From Oscillospiraceae bacterium (GTDB lineage Bacteria > Bacillota > Clostridia > Oscillospirales > Oscillospiraceae): 64,000 bases of DNA. The DNA lies in contig JAEEKA010000085.1 in the NCBI GenBank assembly GCA_016282135.1, positions 1-64,000 of the forward strand, given 5' to 3'. The stretch's first letter is position 1. Each line of letters opens with the position of its first letter. The notes beneath the pieces are model-generated. The model did not search any database. It worked only from the letters and a program-made list of their open reading frames with translations, and was not told the DNA's origin. The position numbers and the translations under genes are program-made. Of this stretch, positions 23,183 through 53,895 are shown one piece after another.

Positions 23183-24475
23183 TTACCTGCGTCGGCCGCC
23201 CTGTCCGCCCATGCCGCCGGGGCCGCCGCCCATGCCGCCGAACTGGTTGGTGATCTGGGTCGTCTCGACGCCGTTGACGATGATTGTGCCGCCGGTGTGG
23301 GTGAGGGTGCCGTCGTAGTCGAAGGGGCTCTGGGCGTTGACGCTGATGGCGCCGCCGGTGATGATCAGATTGCCGTTGGAGTCAATGCCGTCGGTGTCGC
23401 CCTGACCCATGGTAATGTTCAGGCTGCCGCCGTTGATCTCCACGCAGACGGGATAGGATTTGGACTTTTGGCCCCCGTTAATGCCGTCGTCGCCGGCCCG
23501 GATGATGATTTCGCCGTCGTTGATCTGAACCCAGGTGCCCTCGATGCCCTCGGCAGCCGTGACATTGACCGCGCCGCCGTCGACCTGGACGATGCTGACT
23601 CCGTGGATGCCGTCGTCGGCGGCGTTGACGTTCAGGGTGCCGCCGCAGAGATAGATCCAGCCCTCCCTGTCGTCATCCTCGTTTTCAGCGTGCAGACCGT
23701 CCTTTTTGCTGCTAGTCACAGTGAGCGTGCCGCCCGCGACGGCGATGGAGTCGTTGGCCTCGATGCCGTGATCCACGGCGTTGACATTCAGGATGCCGCC
23801 GGTAATCTTCAGATCGTCCTTGCAGCTGACGCCGTTGTCGGTGGAGCTGATCTGCAGCGTCCCCAGGCCGTTGAGGACCAGGTCGTCTCGGCTGAAAATC
23901 ACGGCGTCGGTATTGGTGGAGCCGTCGGCGGTGAAGGTCCCGGTGACGGAGAGACTATTCTCGCTGCCCTCGGCGGTGGTCACAAAGACCTTGTCGGCGT
24001 TCTTGACGTAGATCACAGGGAAGCTGTCGTTGGCAACATTCAGGCCGTCCAGCACCAGCTGAACCTTGTCCTCGTCCCCGGCGTCCACCACGACCGTGGC
24101 ATTCTTTGCGCTGCCGCTGAGCACATAGACGCCCTCGGCGTTGATTGTAATGTCCTTGCCGTCGGAGACGGCGCAGGCAACGGCCTCAGTCAGATCGGTG
24201 CTCTGCGCCAGGTCCCGCTCGGAGAAGAGCTCGGAGGCGTCAATCGCGCCCCCCCTGGTGGCGGCGACGGTGGTATCCACCGCGCCGCCGGGGGAAGAAA
24301 AGGAGAATGAGGATGAAGTGTCGGTTTTTGTTGTATTGCCGTTTTGCGCGGCGGAGGCCGTTTGCGCGCTGGCGTCAGCGGCGCAGGCTGCCAGGGAGAA
24401 GGCCAGCAGAACTGCCAGCGTCAGGGCCGCAAGCATTTTTAATTTGTATCGTTTCATGGTGGTCGCTCCCTTCAT
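23183..24475 (-). CDS. Carbohydrate-binding-domain-containing (DUF4353-like) lipoprotein
   Basis: Lipobox SLAACAAD; repeated GGTLTVTSSKKDGLHAEN / GGTLNVNAADDGIHG beta-helix-like units; Gly-rich C-terminus. Confidence 0.8.
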   Translation of the reverse strand: MKGATTMKRYKLKMLAALTLAVLLAFSLAACAADASAQTASAAQNGNTTKTDTSSSFSFSSPGGAVDTTVAATRGGAIDASELFSERDLAQSTDLTEAVACAVSDGKDITINAEGVYVLSGSAKNATVVVDAGDEDKVQLVLDGLNVANDSFPVIYVKNADKVFVTTAEGSENSLSVTGTFTADGSTNTDAVIFSRDDLVLNGLGTLQISSTDNGVSCKDDLKITGGILNVNAVDHGIEANDSIAVAGGTLTVTSSKKDGLHAENEDDDREGWIYLCGGTLNVNAADDGIHGVSIVQVDGGAVNVTAAEGIEGTWVQINDGEIIIRAGDDGINGGQKSKSYPVCVEINGGSLNITMGQGDTDGIDSNGNLIITGGAISVNAQSPFDYDGTLTHTGGTIIVNGVETTQITNQFGGMGGGPGGMGGQGGRRR

Positions 24476-24585: not shown

Positions 24586-24611
24586 GGAACATATTCCTTT
24601 GTCCCTCGTCT
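24586..24611 (+). promoter_or_regulatory. ECF-sigma-like promoter GGAAC-N16-CGTCT
   Basis: GGAAC 24586-24590, CGTCT 24607-24611, 46 bp upstream of the serpin ATG. Confidence 0.6.
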
Positions 24612-24657
24612 AAGCACCCAGGAACCCAAACAACGGAAATTTGAGGAGGGACTCATC

Positions 24658-25908
24658 ATGTTCAAGAGACTAACCAAGCTGATGCTTTGCCTGCTGCTGA
24701 TTGCGGCAATGGCGCTGAATCTCACAGCCTGCGTGGCAAAGGTTCAGGCCGCCGATCTGATGGACGGGATCAAGTCCAACACCCAGACAGGCTCCGTCAG
24801 CAAACCGGATGAAGGCCGCCAGGCCGCCGCCGCTGACTTCGCCCTGCGGCTGTTCCGGGCTGCCAACGAGAGCGGCAAGAGTACCCTGATCTCTCCCCTG
24901 TCCGTGCTCAGTGCCCTGTCCATGACCGCCAACGGCGCCAAGGGCGAAACCCTGGGCCAGATGGAGAAAACCCTGGGCATGACCCAGGCGGAGCTGAACG
25001 AATACTTCCTTTCCTACCGGAAGCTGCTGGAAGACGGCAAGAGCCTTCGGCTTGCCAATTCGATCTGGTTTCGGGATGGCTTTGCGGTCAACCGGGATTT
25101 CCTGCAGACCAACGCCGACTGCTACGGCGCGGACGCCTATCAGGCCCCCTTTGACAACAGCACCCTGAAGGACATCAACAACTGGGTCAACAACAAGACC
25201 GACGGGATGATCCCGGAGATTCTGGGCGAACTTTCCAAAGACACCGTGATGTGCCTGGTGAACGCCCTGGCCTTCGATTGCAAGTGGCAGGAGGAATACG
25301 AGGAGGACGACATCCGCAGCGGTGAATTCACCTGCGCCGACGGCAGCAAACGGACGGTGGACTTCCTGCACTCCGGGGAATCTGAATACCTGGAAACAGC
25401 CTATGCCACGGGCTTTCTCAGGCCCTACAAGGACAGCTGCTACGCCTTCGCCGCTCTGCTGCCCAAGGAGGGCGTCAGCCTGGAGCAGCTTCTGGCTGAT
25501 TTGGACGGCGTGGCCCTCCGGGACCTGCTGGAAAACCCGAAGTGGGAGTCCGTATCCGTGTCCTTACCCAAGTTTGAGACCAGCTACGACACCGAGCTTT
25601 CCCAGGTTCTGAAGGGCATGGGCATGGAGCTGCCCTTCAGCGAGCAGGCGGATTTCTCCGGTCTGGGCGGAACGGCAGGGGACGGAGTCCACATCAGCCG
25701 CGTTCTGCACAAGACCTTCCTGTCTGTGGACGAAACCGGCACCAAGGCCGCCGCGGCCACCGCAGTCATGATGGAAAAGGCCGCAGCGATTGACATAAGC
25801 TTCCATGAGGTGAATTTGGATCGTCCTTTCCTCTATATGGTGATTGACCGGGAAGCCAATCTGCCCCTGTTCCTCGGCACCATGCTGGACCCGACTCCGG
25901 GGGCGTAA
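24658..25908 (+). CDS. Serpin family lipoprotein (serpin 1)
   Basis: Lipobox NLTAC; NSIWFRDGFAVNRDFLQTNADCYGADAYQAPF, INNWVNNKTDGMIPEIL, hinge GTKAAAATAV, LDRPFLYMVIDREANLPLFLGTMLDP. Confidence 0.95.
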   Translation: MFKRLTKLMLCLLLIAAMALNLTACVAKVQAADLMDGIKSNTQTGSVSKPDEGRQAAAADFALRLFRAANESGKSTLISPLSVLSALSMTANGAKGETLGQMEKTLGMTQAELNEYFLSYRKLLEDGKSLRLANSIWFRDGFAVNRDFLQTNADCYGADAYQAPFDNSTLKDINNWVNNKTDGMIPEILGELSKDTVMCLVNALAFDCKWQEEYEEDDIRSGEFTCADGSKRTVDFLHSGESEYLETAYATGFLRPYKDSCYAFAALLPKEGVSLEQLLADLDGVALRDLLENPKWESVSVSLPKFETSYDTELSQVLKGMGMELPFSEQADFSGLGGTAGDGVHISRVLHKTFLSVDETGTKAAAATAVMMEKAAAIDISFHEVNLDRPFLYMVIDREANLPLFLGTMLDPTPGA

Positions 25909-39112: not shown

Positions 39113-39138
39113 GGAACCGTAAGGAGTTTTCAGCGTCT
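39113..39138 (+). promoter_or_regulatory. ECF-sigma-like promoter GGAAC-N16-CGTCT
   Basis: GGAAC 39113-39117, CGTCT 39134-39138, upstream of the sigma factor gene. Confidence 0.6.
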
Positions 39139-39194
39139 CAATTGTATAAAAGATGCGCGGTCAGACGTGAGCGCAGCAATACAGGAGGAACCCT

Positions 39195-39740
39195 ATGGAC
39201 AACGGTACAAGCAGCTACCGCCGTTTTCTGGATGGCGATGATCACGCCGTCGACGAGATCATGGAGGAGTTGTTCTTCCCGCTGGTCTTTTTCATCAACC
39301 GCTATGTGCAGGACGTTCCCGCCGCGGAGGACATCGCGTTGGACGCCATGACAGAGCTGTTTGTACATCCCCGCCGCTACAACTTCAAAACCTCTCTGAA
39401 AACGTATCTGTTCATGCTGGGGAAGAGTCGGGCGCTGAATTACTGCAAGCGTCGGCGGATCCTGCCCATGGAGGAGCTGTCCGAAGCCCTCCCGGCCCAG
39501 CAGGCGGAGCTGGAGGATCGGGCCCTGGACGACGAGCGAAAGCGGGTGGTCAGCCAGGCCCTGGCCCGGCTCCCGGAAGAGATGCGGGTGGCCGTCCACC
39601 TGGTTTTCTTTGCGGAATTGAGCTATGAGGAGACGGCCCGGGTGATGAAAAAGAACCGCAAGCAGGTGGACAACCTGCTCTACCGCGCGAAGAAGGAGCT
39701 TCGCGGGATGCTCGGAGAGGAGGGCCGGCAGCTGTTATGA
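39195..39740 (+). CDS. RNA polymerase ECF-type sigma factor
   Basis: HAVDEIMEELFFPLVFFINRYVQDVPAAEDIALDAMTELF (region 2) and LPEEMRVAVHLVFFAELSYEETARVMKKNRKQVDNLLYRAKKELR (region 4). Confidence 0.92.
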   Translation: MDNGTSSYRRFLDGDDHAVDEIMEELFFPLVFFINRYVQDVPAAEDIALDAMTELFVHPRRYNFKTSLKTYLFMLGKSRALNYCKRRRILPMEELSEALPAQQAELEDRALDDERKRVVSQALARLPEEMRVAVHLVFFAELSYEETARVMKKNRKQVDNLLYRAKKELRGMLGEEGRQLL

Positions 39741-40282
39741 GAGAAATCGACGAATACACCGCGGAGCTGCGCCAGAGAATCGCCCAAAAGCTGGAGCAGC
39801 GGCGGTTGGCCCGGAAACGGCTGGCAGCCTGCGCCGCCTCTCTGGTCCTGGTGGTTGGAATCACCGCGGCAGTGCTCCTGCCGGGCCTCCGCCCCGGAAC
39901 AGACGGTCGATCGGGAGAGGCCAGGGAAAGCACGGAGGCCGCCCCCGTCAGTCTCTGCGGCGCGGAGCTCTGGCGGATGGATCAAAGCGGTCAATGGGAG
40001 CGTTCGGACAGGCAGCCCCGGGCCCCTGCGGGTTTGAGCGTCTGGATTCGCAGCGCTGACCCCCTTGCCTACGCGGAGTCGGATGGCGATTGCCCGGTGG
40101 ATGACAGTCCTGAAACTGCCAGCGAACAGGAGCCTGTCCGGATTCTGCTGACCGATGAGAACGGCATTCAGATGGAATACCTTTTTGACGGCGCGGCGTT
40201 GATCCGATTGCCGGAAAACCGGCGGGTGGCCCTGACCGACCAACAAATCAAAGAGCTGAAGTCACTGTTGTTTGAGGACTGA
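39737..40282 (+). CDS. Single-TM protein, putative anti-sigma factor
   Basis: ATGA overlap with the sigma gene; short cytosolic N-terminus, one TM (LAACAASLVLVVGITAAVLL), extracytoplasmic C-terminus. Confidence 0.6.
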   Translation: MREIDEYTAELRQRIAQKLEQRRLARKRLAACAASLVLVVGITAAVLLPGLRPGTDGRSGEARESTEAAPVSLCGAELWRMDQSGQWERSDRQPRAPAGLSVWIRSADPLAYAESDGDCPVDDSPETASEQEPVRILLTDENGIQMEYLFDGAALIRLPENRRVALTDQQIKELKSLLFED

Positions 40283-40297
40283 AAGGAGAACGTGAAC

Positions 40298-41620
40298 ATG
40301 AACGTGAAACAATGGAAGATGAAGCGAGCGCTCTGCCTGCTGCTGGCCGCTGTGCTGCTCAGCTTCGGCGGCTGCACCGCCGCCAACCAGCCCGGCTCCC
40401 CCGGCGGAACGGGCGGCTCTACCCAGCCGGCCGCCCCGGCAGTCCGGACGCGCTCCGTGGACCTGATGGCCGAGGTCAATCCCACGGCTGACACCCGGAA
40501 GACCTCCGGCATGAGCCCGGAAGCCGCCGCGGCCGCGGCGGACTTTGCCCTGCGGCTCTTCCGGGCGGGCAGCAAGGCCGGAGAAAACAGCCTGATCTCC
40601 CCCCTGTCCGTGCTCAGCGCCCTGGCGATGACCGCCAACGGGGCCAAAGGCGAGACCCTGGAGCAGATGGAACGCACCCTGGGGCTGAGCCGGGAGCAGT
40701 ACAACGAATTCTTCCGGGGCTATCTGGCCGCCCTGGGCGAGGACAGCAAAAACGCACTGCGGCTGGCCAACTCCGTCTGGTTCACCAACGATCCTCGCTT
40801 TACCGTGAATCAGGATTTTTTGCAGACCAACGCCGATTTCTACGGCGCAGGGGTCTACCAGGCTCCCTTTGACAATACGACTCTCCGAGACATCAACAAC
40901 TGGGTCAAGGAGAAAACCGCCGGAATGATCCCCGAGATTCTGGACGAGATCCCGCTGGAGGCGGTGATGTATCTGGTCAACGCCCTGGCCTTTGAGGGCA
41001 AGTGGATGACGCCGTATAACAAATATTCCGTTGCGCCGGGGGAGTTTATCGCGGCAAACGGGAACGAGCGAAGCGTGGATTTCATGTACGCCGAGGAACA
41101 CGCCTATCTGGAGGACGAAAACGCCACAGGCTTCCTCAAGTATTATGAGGGCGGGCGCTATGCCTTCGCCGCTCTGCTGCCCAGGGAGGGCGTCAGCGTG
41201 GAGCAGTACCTGGCCGCCCTGGACGGAGCCGCCCTGCGGGCCATGCTGACAAATCCCCGGCCCGAGGCAGTGCAGACCTCCCTGCCGAAGTTCGAGGCCG
41301 CCTGGTCCGGGGAACTTTCCGAGCTTTTGAAGTCCATGGGCATGACTGTCCCCTTCGACAGCAGCGCGGCGGATTTCTCCGGTCTGGGCAGCTCCACCGG
41401 CGGGAATATCTTCATCAACCGGGTGCTCCACAAGACTTTTATCTCCGTGGCGGAGCAGGGCACCCGGGCCGGCGCGGCTACCGCGGTGGAAATGACTGAC
41501 GAGGCCGTTATGGAGATAACCCGTCAGGTCTATCTGGATCGTCCCTTCGTCTATATGCTGGTTGACTGCGAGACAGGCCTTCCCTTCTTCATCGGTACCA
41601 TGCTGGATCCCGCAGGCTGA
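40298..41620 (+). CDS. Serpin family lipoprotein (serpin 2)
   Basis: Lipobox LLSFGGC; NSVWFTNDPRFTVNQDFLQTNADFYGAGVYQAPF, hinge GTRAGAATAV, LDRPFVYMLVDCETGLPFFIGTMLDP. Confidence 0.95.
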   Translation: MNVKQWKMKRALCLLLAAVLLSFGGCTAANQPGSPGGTGGSTQPAAPAVRTRSVDLMAEVNPTADTRKTSGMSPEAAAAAADFALRLFRAGSKAGENSLISPLSVLSALAMTANGAKGETLEQMERTLGLSREQYNEFFRGYLAALGEDSKNALRLANSVWFTNDPRFTVNQDFLQTNADFYGAGVYQAPFDNTTLRDINNWVKEKTAGMIPEILDEIPLEAVMYLVNALAFEGKWMTPYNKYSVAPGEFIAANGNERSVDFMYAEEHAYLEDENATGFLKYYEGGRYAFAALLPREGVSVEQYLAALDGAALRAMLTNPRPEAVQTSLPKFEAAWSGELSELLKSMGMTVPFDSSAADFSGLGSSTGGNIFINRVLHKTFISVAEQGTRAGAATAVEMTDEAVMEITRQVYLDRPFVYMLVDCETGLPFFIGTMLDPAG

Positions 41621-52625: not shown

Positions 52626-52651
52626 GGAACTTTTTCCTTTGCACATCGTCG
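52626..52651 (+). promoter_or_regulatory. ECF-sigma-like promoter GGAAC-N16-CGTCG
   Basis: GGAAC 52626-52630, CGTCG 52647-52651; spacer shares TTCCTTTG with the serpin 1 promoter. Confidence 0.55.
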
Positions 52652-52686: not shown

Positions 52687-53895
52687 ATGATGTGCAAAAA
52701 AGCAGTGATTTATCTTCTGGCGGCCCTGCTCCTTTTTGCGGCGGGCTGCGACAAAAGCCAAACAACATCCGACACTGAATCCACCGCCCCCATCTCCACC
52801 CAGCCGAAGCACCCTGTGGACCTTCTGGCTGAGGACGGCAGCCGCGCCGCCGCCCCCGACGCCCGCTGTCTTTGCACGGTGACGGAAAAAGGCGTGCTCT
52901 ACGACGAATTCGACCAGGGTGGCGCGCCCACGAGTACGGCAATCTACCACTGGATCGACACCTCCGCCCGGGAGGACGTCCCCTTAATGACGCTGGAGGA
53001 CCAGGGCTACGAGGCAGTCTACACCCGCACAGAGCTGGGCGGCGCCGTTTACACCCTGGCGCTCACGGGCAATCCCACGGACGACGCTCCGGATACGCTG
53101 TGGCTTCTATGCATTGACGGGCCCGGGCGGACTGCGGAGAAATATCGGATTACGGACAACGGCTTCCCCTACTGCTCCATGGCCGCGATGGAGGACAGGC
53201 TCCTGATTGTCAGCCATGAGATGACCCATCCGGCCAGCGATAAGGTCTATGTCTTCGATCCCGCCGACAAGACCGTGCGGAAGCTCCTGTCTTTTCCGGC
53301 AGGCGACGACGTCACCGATACCCTGCGGGCGGTCTGTGCCGACGAAGACGGTTTTGCCCTGCTCCGCCTGCACCTGGAAGGGGGAAGCTCCGAGCTGTAT
53401 CTGGACCGTTATGATCGCTCCGGTCAAAATCGCTCCGAGTTGGCATTGAACGAGCAGATGATTGCCGCGGCAATGAATGTTCACGGCGTTCTCTCCCGGC
53501 GGGAAGCCCTGGATGAATTCGGCATGATGGTAAGCGGCTTCCGCTTGGAGGAAGGGCGGTACCTGTACTATGAAAATTTCGGCCGACTGCGTCTGATTGT
53601 GGACCTGGAAACGGGCCTGCCTCTCTTCACGGGGGATGACCTCTACGCCATGTCCGTAGGCAGCGGGCGTCCGGCCTTCTACTTCCTGGATTTCTTCATG
53701 CCGGGAGGCGACGAGCTCCACACTCCCGGGATCTACGTCCTGCGGGAGGGTGAGATGACCCGGCTCCCTTTTACGCCGGCAGAGGAACGGAGCATGATCC
53801 GGCACATCTCCCATGCCGCCGACGGGACCTGGCTGATCCGCGTTACCGACGGCAATGAGGAAAACGACGCCTGGCACTTGTGGAAGGAGCCCTGA
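52687..53895 (+). CDS. Hypothetical lipoprotein, possibly repeat/propeller-like
   Basis: MMCKKAVIYLLAALLLFAAGCDKSQ; repeated YVFDPADKTVRKLLSF / LYLDRYDRSGQNRSEL-like segments. Confidence 0.75.
   Translation: MMCKKAVIYLLAALLLFAAGCDKSQTTSDTESTAPISTQPKHPVDLLAEDGSRAAAPDARCLCTVTEKGVLYDEFDQGGAPTSTAIYHWIDTSAREDVPLMTLEDQGYEAVYTRTELGGAVYTLALTGNPTDDAPDTLWLLCIDGPGRTAEKYRITDNGFPYCSMAAMEDRLLIVSHEMTHPASDKVYVFDPADKTVRKLLSFPAGDDVTDTLRAVCADEDGFALLRLHLEGGSSELYLDRYDRSGQNRSELALNEQMIAAAMNVHGVLSRREALDEFGMMVSGFRLEEGRYLYYENFGRLRLIVDLETGLPLFTGDDLYAMSVGSGRPAFYFLDFFMPGGDELHTPGIYVLREGEMTRLPFTPAEERSMIRHISHAADGTWLIRVTDGNEENDAWHLWKEP

Follow-up and report, generated by a model that had tools for sequence, protein, structure and literature searches.

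The promoter of serpin 1, a predicted GGAAC-N16-CGTCTAA element at positions 24586-24613, is probably read by an RpoE/SigW-like ECF sigma factor encoded on contig C22 of the same genome, and not by the ECF-type sigma factor encoded at 39195. The element was examined in a stretch of 64,000 nucleotides (the window) belonging to a 2.5-Mb Oscillospiraceae metagenome bin that is 86% complete, and it was compared across approximately 120 related genomes. Because these relatives are also bins, 70 to 90% complete, absences of genes from them are uncertain. Among named records, the nearest one containing serpin 1 (93%) is a water-buffalo rumen bin assigned to the Oscillospiraceae. The serpin 1 locus contains the following features:

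24586..24590, + strand: predicted -35 box (GGAAC) of the serpin 1 ECF promoter, from sequence; kept in serpin 1 orthologs and upstream of other stand-alone serpins
24607..24613, + strand: predicted -10 box (CGTCTAA), 16 bp past the -35 box; same box in orthologs
24643..24649, + strand: Shine-Dalgarno sequence (GAGGAGG) of serpin 1, from sequence
24658..25908, + strand: serpin 1, a 416-aa lipoprotein (PF00079, E=9e-89; lipobox LTAC)
23183..24475, - strand: divergent gene encoding a lipoprotein with a Cthe_2159 carbohydrate-binding domain

The first-pass annotation had described serpin 1 as a lipoprotein preceded by GGAAC (24586-24590), 16 bp, and CGTCT (24607-24611). The element is present base for base, and the lipobox LTAC agrees with the lipoprotein assignment. 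The promoter lies within the 182-bp gap between the divergent lipoprotein gene (23183-24475) and serpin 1, whose ATG at 24658 is 72 bp from the first base of the motif. Serpin 1 contains a full serpin domain, matching positions 2 to 370 of the 370-position Pfam model PF00079, and is 58% identical to serpin 2, the third gene of the sigma operon described below. Its hinge sequence, GTKAAAATA, looks to be of the inhibitory type. The bases at 24586-24597, like those at several other motif sites, form a GGAA-N4-TTCC dyad (GGAACATATTCC, GGAACTTTTTCC) that the promoter boxes do not explain.

Counts of the motif within one genome gave a mixed picture. The window contains six matches to GGAAC-N15..17-CGTC versus 1.94 expected, a number reached in none of 100 shuffles. 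Genome-wide, the bare GGAAC-N15-17-CGTC pattern was not enriched, with 94 matches versus 193 for the reversed control pattern. A mechanical test for sites lying upstream of a gene was passed by 9 of 45 sites versus 2 of 29 control sites, a difference that was not significant (p=0.18). The case for something more than chance therefore rests on conservation across genomes. One further window site may mark another member of the regulon, with a weak spacer score (z 1.1):

52626..52650, + strand: third GGAAC-N16-CGTC site, a possible further regulon member, 61 bp ahead of a lipoprotein gene
52687..53895, + strand: lipoprotein behind this site, of unknown family, with no Pfam match

Conservation was evident upstream of serpin genes in the other genomes. 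GGAAC-N15..17-CGTC was found within 150 bp upstream of 13 of 24 stand-alone serpins, with a spacing of N16 in 10 cases and N17 in 3, and no motif appeared upstream of these serpins at any other spacing between 10 and 24. When 5,000 permuted patterns were searched upstream of the same 24 genes, the mean was 0.03 matches and the maximum was 2. The strict motif was absent from the remaining 11 serpins, and AGAAC-N16-CGTCTAA precedes a serpin in G020. In the two closest serpin 1 orthologs, from G002 (93%) and G006 (74%), both boxes were kept and the spacer had changed. The serpin 1 element thus has the boxes, the 16- to 17-bp spacing, and the conservation around a variable spacer that are found in ECF promoters of the RpoE/SigW type. 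Judged from sequence, it is an evolutionarily conserved, putative stress-response promoter. Control of serpin 1 by an ECF sigma factor is very probable, through a genuine ECF-type promoter common to several serpins.

The first-pass annotation had also reported the same boxes and spacing ahead of the sigma operon that includes serpin 2, and these are indeed present (GGAAC at 39113-39117, N16, CGTCT at 39134-39138). The operon and its upstream region are composed as follows:

39113..39138, + strand: GGAAC-N16-CGTCT ahead of the sigma operon, coincidental or secondary
39121..39149, + strand: conserved sigma-operon promoter AAGGA-N18-GTATAA, with boxes at 39121-39125 and 39144-39149
39195..39740, + strand: ECF-type sigma factor encoded in the serpin 2 operon (PF08281/PF04542)
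39737..40282, + strand: single-pass membrane protein, presumed anti-sigma factor, overlapping the sigma gene by 4 nt; no match in Pfam and NCBIfam searches
40298..41620, + strand: serpin 2, a lipoprotein (PF00079, E=8e-85), gene 3 of the operon

We compared 17 copies of this operon, comprising the window copy and 16 more, one of them on contig C93 of the same genome. GTATAA occupied the same position in all 17, and [AT]AGGA-N16..19-GTATAA was present in 16, with AGGA-N17/18-GTATAA as the conserved form. GGAAC-N16-CGTC was present in only two copies, those of this genome and G001. It was missing from the copies in G005 and G013, which belong to the same genus, and from all copies outside the genus; the G004 and C93 copies carry AGAAC-N16-CGTC instead. 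A search for more copies found the sigma operon in only five genomes of the genus. AAGGA-N17..19-GTATAA matched the genome once, at the sigma operon itself (39121-39149), and AGGA-N17/18-GTATAA was not found upstream of serpin 1. Since the 39195 operon conserves AGGA/GTATAA, its sigma factor's own promoter would differ from that of serpin 1. Further copies of the 39195-type sigma gene, 80% and 88% identical, lie at the ends of contigs C93 and C60 (L117 and L118); these are either paralogs or foreign contigs in the bin.

The candidate reader of the serpin 1 promoter is encoded at positions 4004-4612 of contig C22 (L156 2502-3113). Its protein contains Sigma70_r2 and Sigma70_r4_2 domains, and the next gene encodes a zf-HC2 anti-sigma factor. 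Scores of 168.1 bits (cutoff of 209 for NF007223) and 157.2 bits (cutoff of 243.1 for TIGR02948) fall below the NCBIfam SigW equivalog thresholds; the protein is SigW-like and is not filed as SigW. In all 30 C22 orthologs examined (47 to 100% identity; loci including L174-L202), the 3' end of the sigma gene contains GGAAC-N16-CGTC, some tens of base pairs ahead of the anti-sigma start. The motif lies in another reading frame in L202, and the sigma stop codon falls inside its spacer in L201; therefore, it is the DNA and not the protein that stays conserved. A promoter in this position would let the anti-sigma factor be made apart from the sigma factor. Among the other sigma genes of the genome, every one of which was scanned, only that at 39195 has GGAAC-N16-CGTC upstream.

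The motif at this sigma factor's own locus is matched by its co-occurrence with the sigma factor across genomes. GGAAC-N16-CGTCTAA had 130 matches in the 80 genomes with a C22-type sigma factor and 4 in the 38 without (Fisher p=5e-12, an optimistic value because the genomes are not phylogenetically independent). A reversed control motif gave 67 and 36 matches in the same genome sets (p=0.7). Nine genomes with a 39195-type but no RpoE-like sigma factor contained a single GGAAC-N16-CGTCTAA in total. G005, G038, and G048 have one or two motifs each with no RpoE-like sigma factor detected. In G002 and G006, the serpin 1 motif was kept though no 39195 ortholog was detected in these incomplete bins; an RpoE-like sigma factor was detected in both (86% and 81%, respectively).

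Site scores and sigma factor residues point in the same direction as this distribution. We scored the 45 N16 sites found in the genome with a matrix trained only on anti-sigma promoters of other genomes, with the core boxes excluded. The serpin 1 site ranked 3rd, and the sigma-operon site ranked 13th, among sites inside genes. Against shuffled flanks and spacers, the z-scores were 3.57 and 0.88, respectively, from a training set that also held serpin sites, two of them from serpin 1 orthologs. With the core boxes disregarded, the score of the sigma-operon match is at background level. By eye, region 4.2 of the C22 sigma factor (GTVKSRLARAR) resembles that of Escherichia coli sigma-E (GTVRSRIFRAR) and of SigW, and the corresponding KQVDNLLYRAK of the 39195 sigma factor, compared by eye in printed alignments, is unlike both. 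CGTC is experimentally established as an ECF -10 element for Thermoanaerobacter tengcongensis RpoE1, in which a DXXR motif is tied to it (PMC3397946). At the DXXR position in region 2.4, the C22 sigma factor reads DWLR and the 39195 sigma factor reads NYCK (by eye).

The first-pass annotation had proposed that both serpins belong to one ECF regulon. The part of this proposal that stands is the ECF-type promoter of serpin 1, found before 13 of 24 serpins elsewhere; its assignment to the 39195 sigma factor is not supported, as that operon has an AGGA/GTATAA promoter of its own and the motif tracks the C22 sigma factor. A single regulon read by the 39195 sigma factor at its own operon and at serpin 1 would explain why the motifs at 24586 and 39113 share the same boxes and spacing and why serpin 2 is found inside the sigma operon. 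We nevertheless consider it very improbable in view of the 2 operon copies with GGAAC-N16-CGTC versus 16 and 17 with the AGGA/GTATAA elements, the lone motif in the nine genomes that have only the 39195-type sigma factor, the persistence of the serpin 1 motif where no 39195 ortholog was detected, and regions 4.2 and 2.4 that are unlike those of sigma factors reading GGAAC or CGTC. The sigma-operon match itself may be due to chance or may be a young secondary site. If the latter, overlapping promoters would let the RpoE/SigW-like sigma factor drive the 39195 sigma gene and serpin 2, so both serpins would answer to that sigma factor and not to 39195 in this subclade. The exact match in G001 and the AGAAC variant in the G004 and C93 copies favor such a young second promoter, as do the AGAAC form before a serpin in G020 and the low likelihood of an exact chance match at a given promoter (on the order of 0.1%). 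On the other side, the site is missing from G005, G013, and every copy outside the genus, its spacer and flanks are background-like, and its boxes overlap the conserved AGGA/GTATAA promoter; on balance, we regard this arrangement as rather unlikely.

The dyad at the serpin 1 -35 region raises a different explanation, that the element reflects chance or another signal such as an operator at GGAACATATTCC. A weak hairpin accompanies the dyad there, and several other motif sites read GGAACTTTTTCC, but the dyad is not retained in the serpin 1 orthologs (GGAACAAACCCGG, GGAACCAATCC) in which the promoter boxes were kept, making this explanation hardly credible. Other ECF sigma factors of the genome could share the GGAAC/CGTC specificity. 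The RpoE/SigW-like C22 sigma factor remains our preferred reader of the serpin 1 promoter.

The genes behind the motif extend beyond serpin 1. In this genome, N16 sites also precede two more serpins (C86:112031- and one on the minus strand of C20), two kinds of lipoprotein, one of the von Willebrand factor A (vWA) type and one ending in a C-terminal membrane segment, as well as a protein resembling transglutaminases, membrane proteins, and the zf-HC2 anti-sigma factor. At 30 motif loci from relatives, the next gene often encodes a zf-HC2 anti-sigma factor, a serpin (L223, L225, L226, and L231), or a PstS-like lipoprotein, and other lipoproteins also follow the motif; family names without a library match were assigned by eye. 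The set looks like an envelope-stress regulon. In such a regulon, envelope stress would presumably cause the zf-HC2 anti-sigma factor to release the C22 sigma factor. The freed sigma factor would then transcribe the anti-sigma gene, from the promoter inside the 3' end of its own gene, and the lipoprotein and envelope genes, three stand-alone serpins among them. Serpin 1, if it inhibits proteases, would shield surface proteins from them.

Serpin domains also occur beside ECF genes in another form. Two ECF genes of this genome (C86:15467- and C104:34820-) overlap by 4 nt a gene whose membrane protein product has a short segment at its N terminus, a single transmembrane stretch, and an outer serpin domain. 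The arrangement occurs in about 20 genomes, at these loci:

L154 1117-3488 (G000:C86) and L155 1067-3057 (G000:C104): ECF gene and serpin membrane protein in this genome
L234-L248, L250, L252, L253, L257, and L261: further loci with an ECF gene and a serpin membrane protein

Other ECF genes of the genome likewise overlap by 4 nt with genes for membrane proteins that have a similar N terminus and other outer domains. From their position and architecture, the serpin membrane proteins are apparently anti-sigma-serpin fusions. In three of them, inspected by eye, the reactive-loop hinge has Tyr at approximately position P9; serpins 1 and 2 differ. Protease attack on the reactive loop might change the conformation of such a protein and release the sigma factor. 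We tentatively suggest that serpins could be both an output and a sensor of ECF signaling in these gut Clostridia. Seven other open reading frames (ORFs) of approximately 600 aa begin with an ECF sigma domain followed by a long C-terminal extension (L045, L046, L048, L049, L050, L051, and L055), and ORFs of this type have many paralogs in one genome.

Little is known of how bacterial serpins are regulated, and these results would place them in a defined envelope-stress regulon. They also show that a motif of identical appearance at a distance of 14.5 kb can suggest the wrong sigma factor. Searches of the literature for serpins together with ECF sigma or anti-sigma factors found no case of ECF control of a serpin, and nothing usable was found on two-component control of the bifidobacterial serpin. 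Serpin 1 resembles known gut bacterial serpins, such as the siropins of Eubacterium siraeum (PMC5127057) and groups T and U (PMC8233489), in having a full serpin domain, in being exported, and in its occurrence in host-associated Firmicutes. The apparent anti-sigma-serpin proteins would work in a similar way to RsgI, the Clostridium thermocellum family of anti-sigma-I factors (PMC3413522, PMC12203970), which are membrane anti-sigma factors with a swappable extracellular sensing domain. RsgI proteins pair sigma-I with carbohydrate domains, whereas here an ECF sigma factor is paired with a serpin domain, and we do not claim membership in the RsgI family. The closest parallel for the promoter is with the RpoE/SigW-type systems, which include E. 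coli sigma-E (GGAACTT), Bacillus subtilis SigW, and T. tengcongensis RpoE1 (PMC3397946; reviewed in PMC8103513). The GGAAC -35 box, the CGTC -10 box, the spacing of 16 to 17 bp, the envelope and lipoprotein gene targets, and autoregulation together with an anti-sigma factor are common to both. Unlike in those systems, stand-alone serpin lipoproteins are recurrent targets here, and the predicted autoregulatory promoter is located within the 3'-terminal part of the sigma gene, ahead of the anti-sigma gene, which this conserved promoter appears to drive separately.
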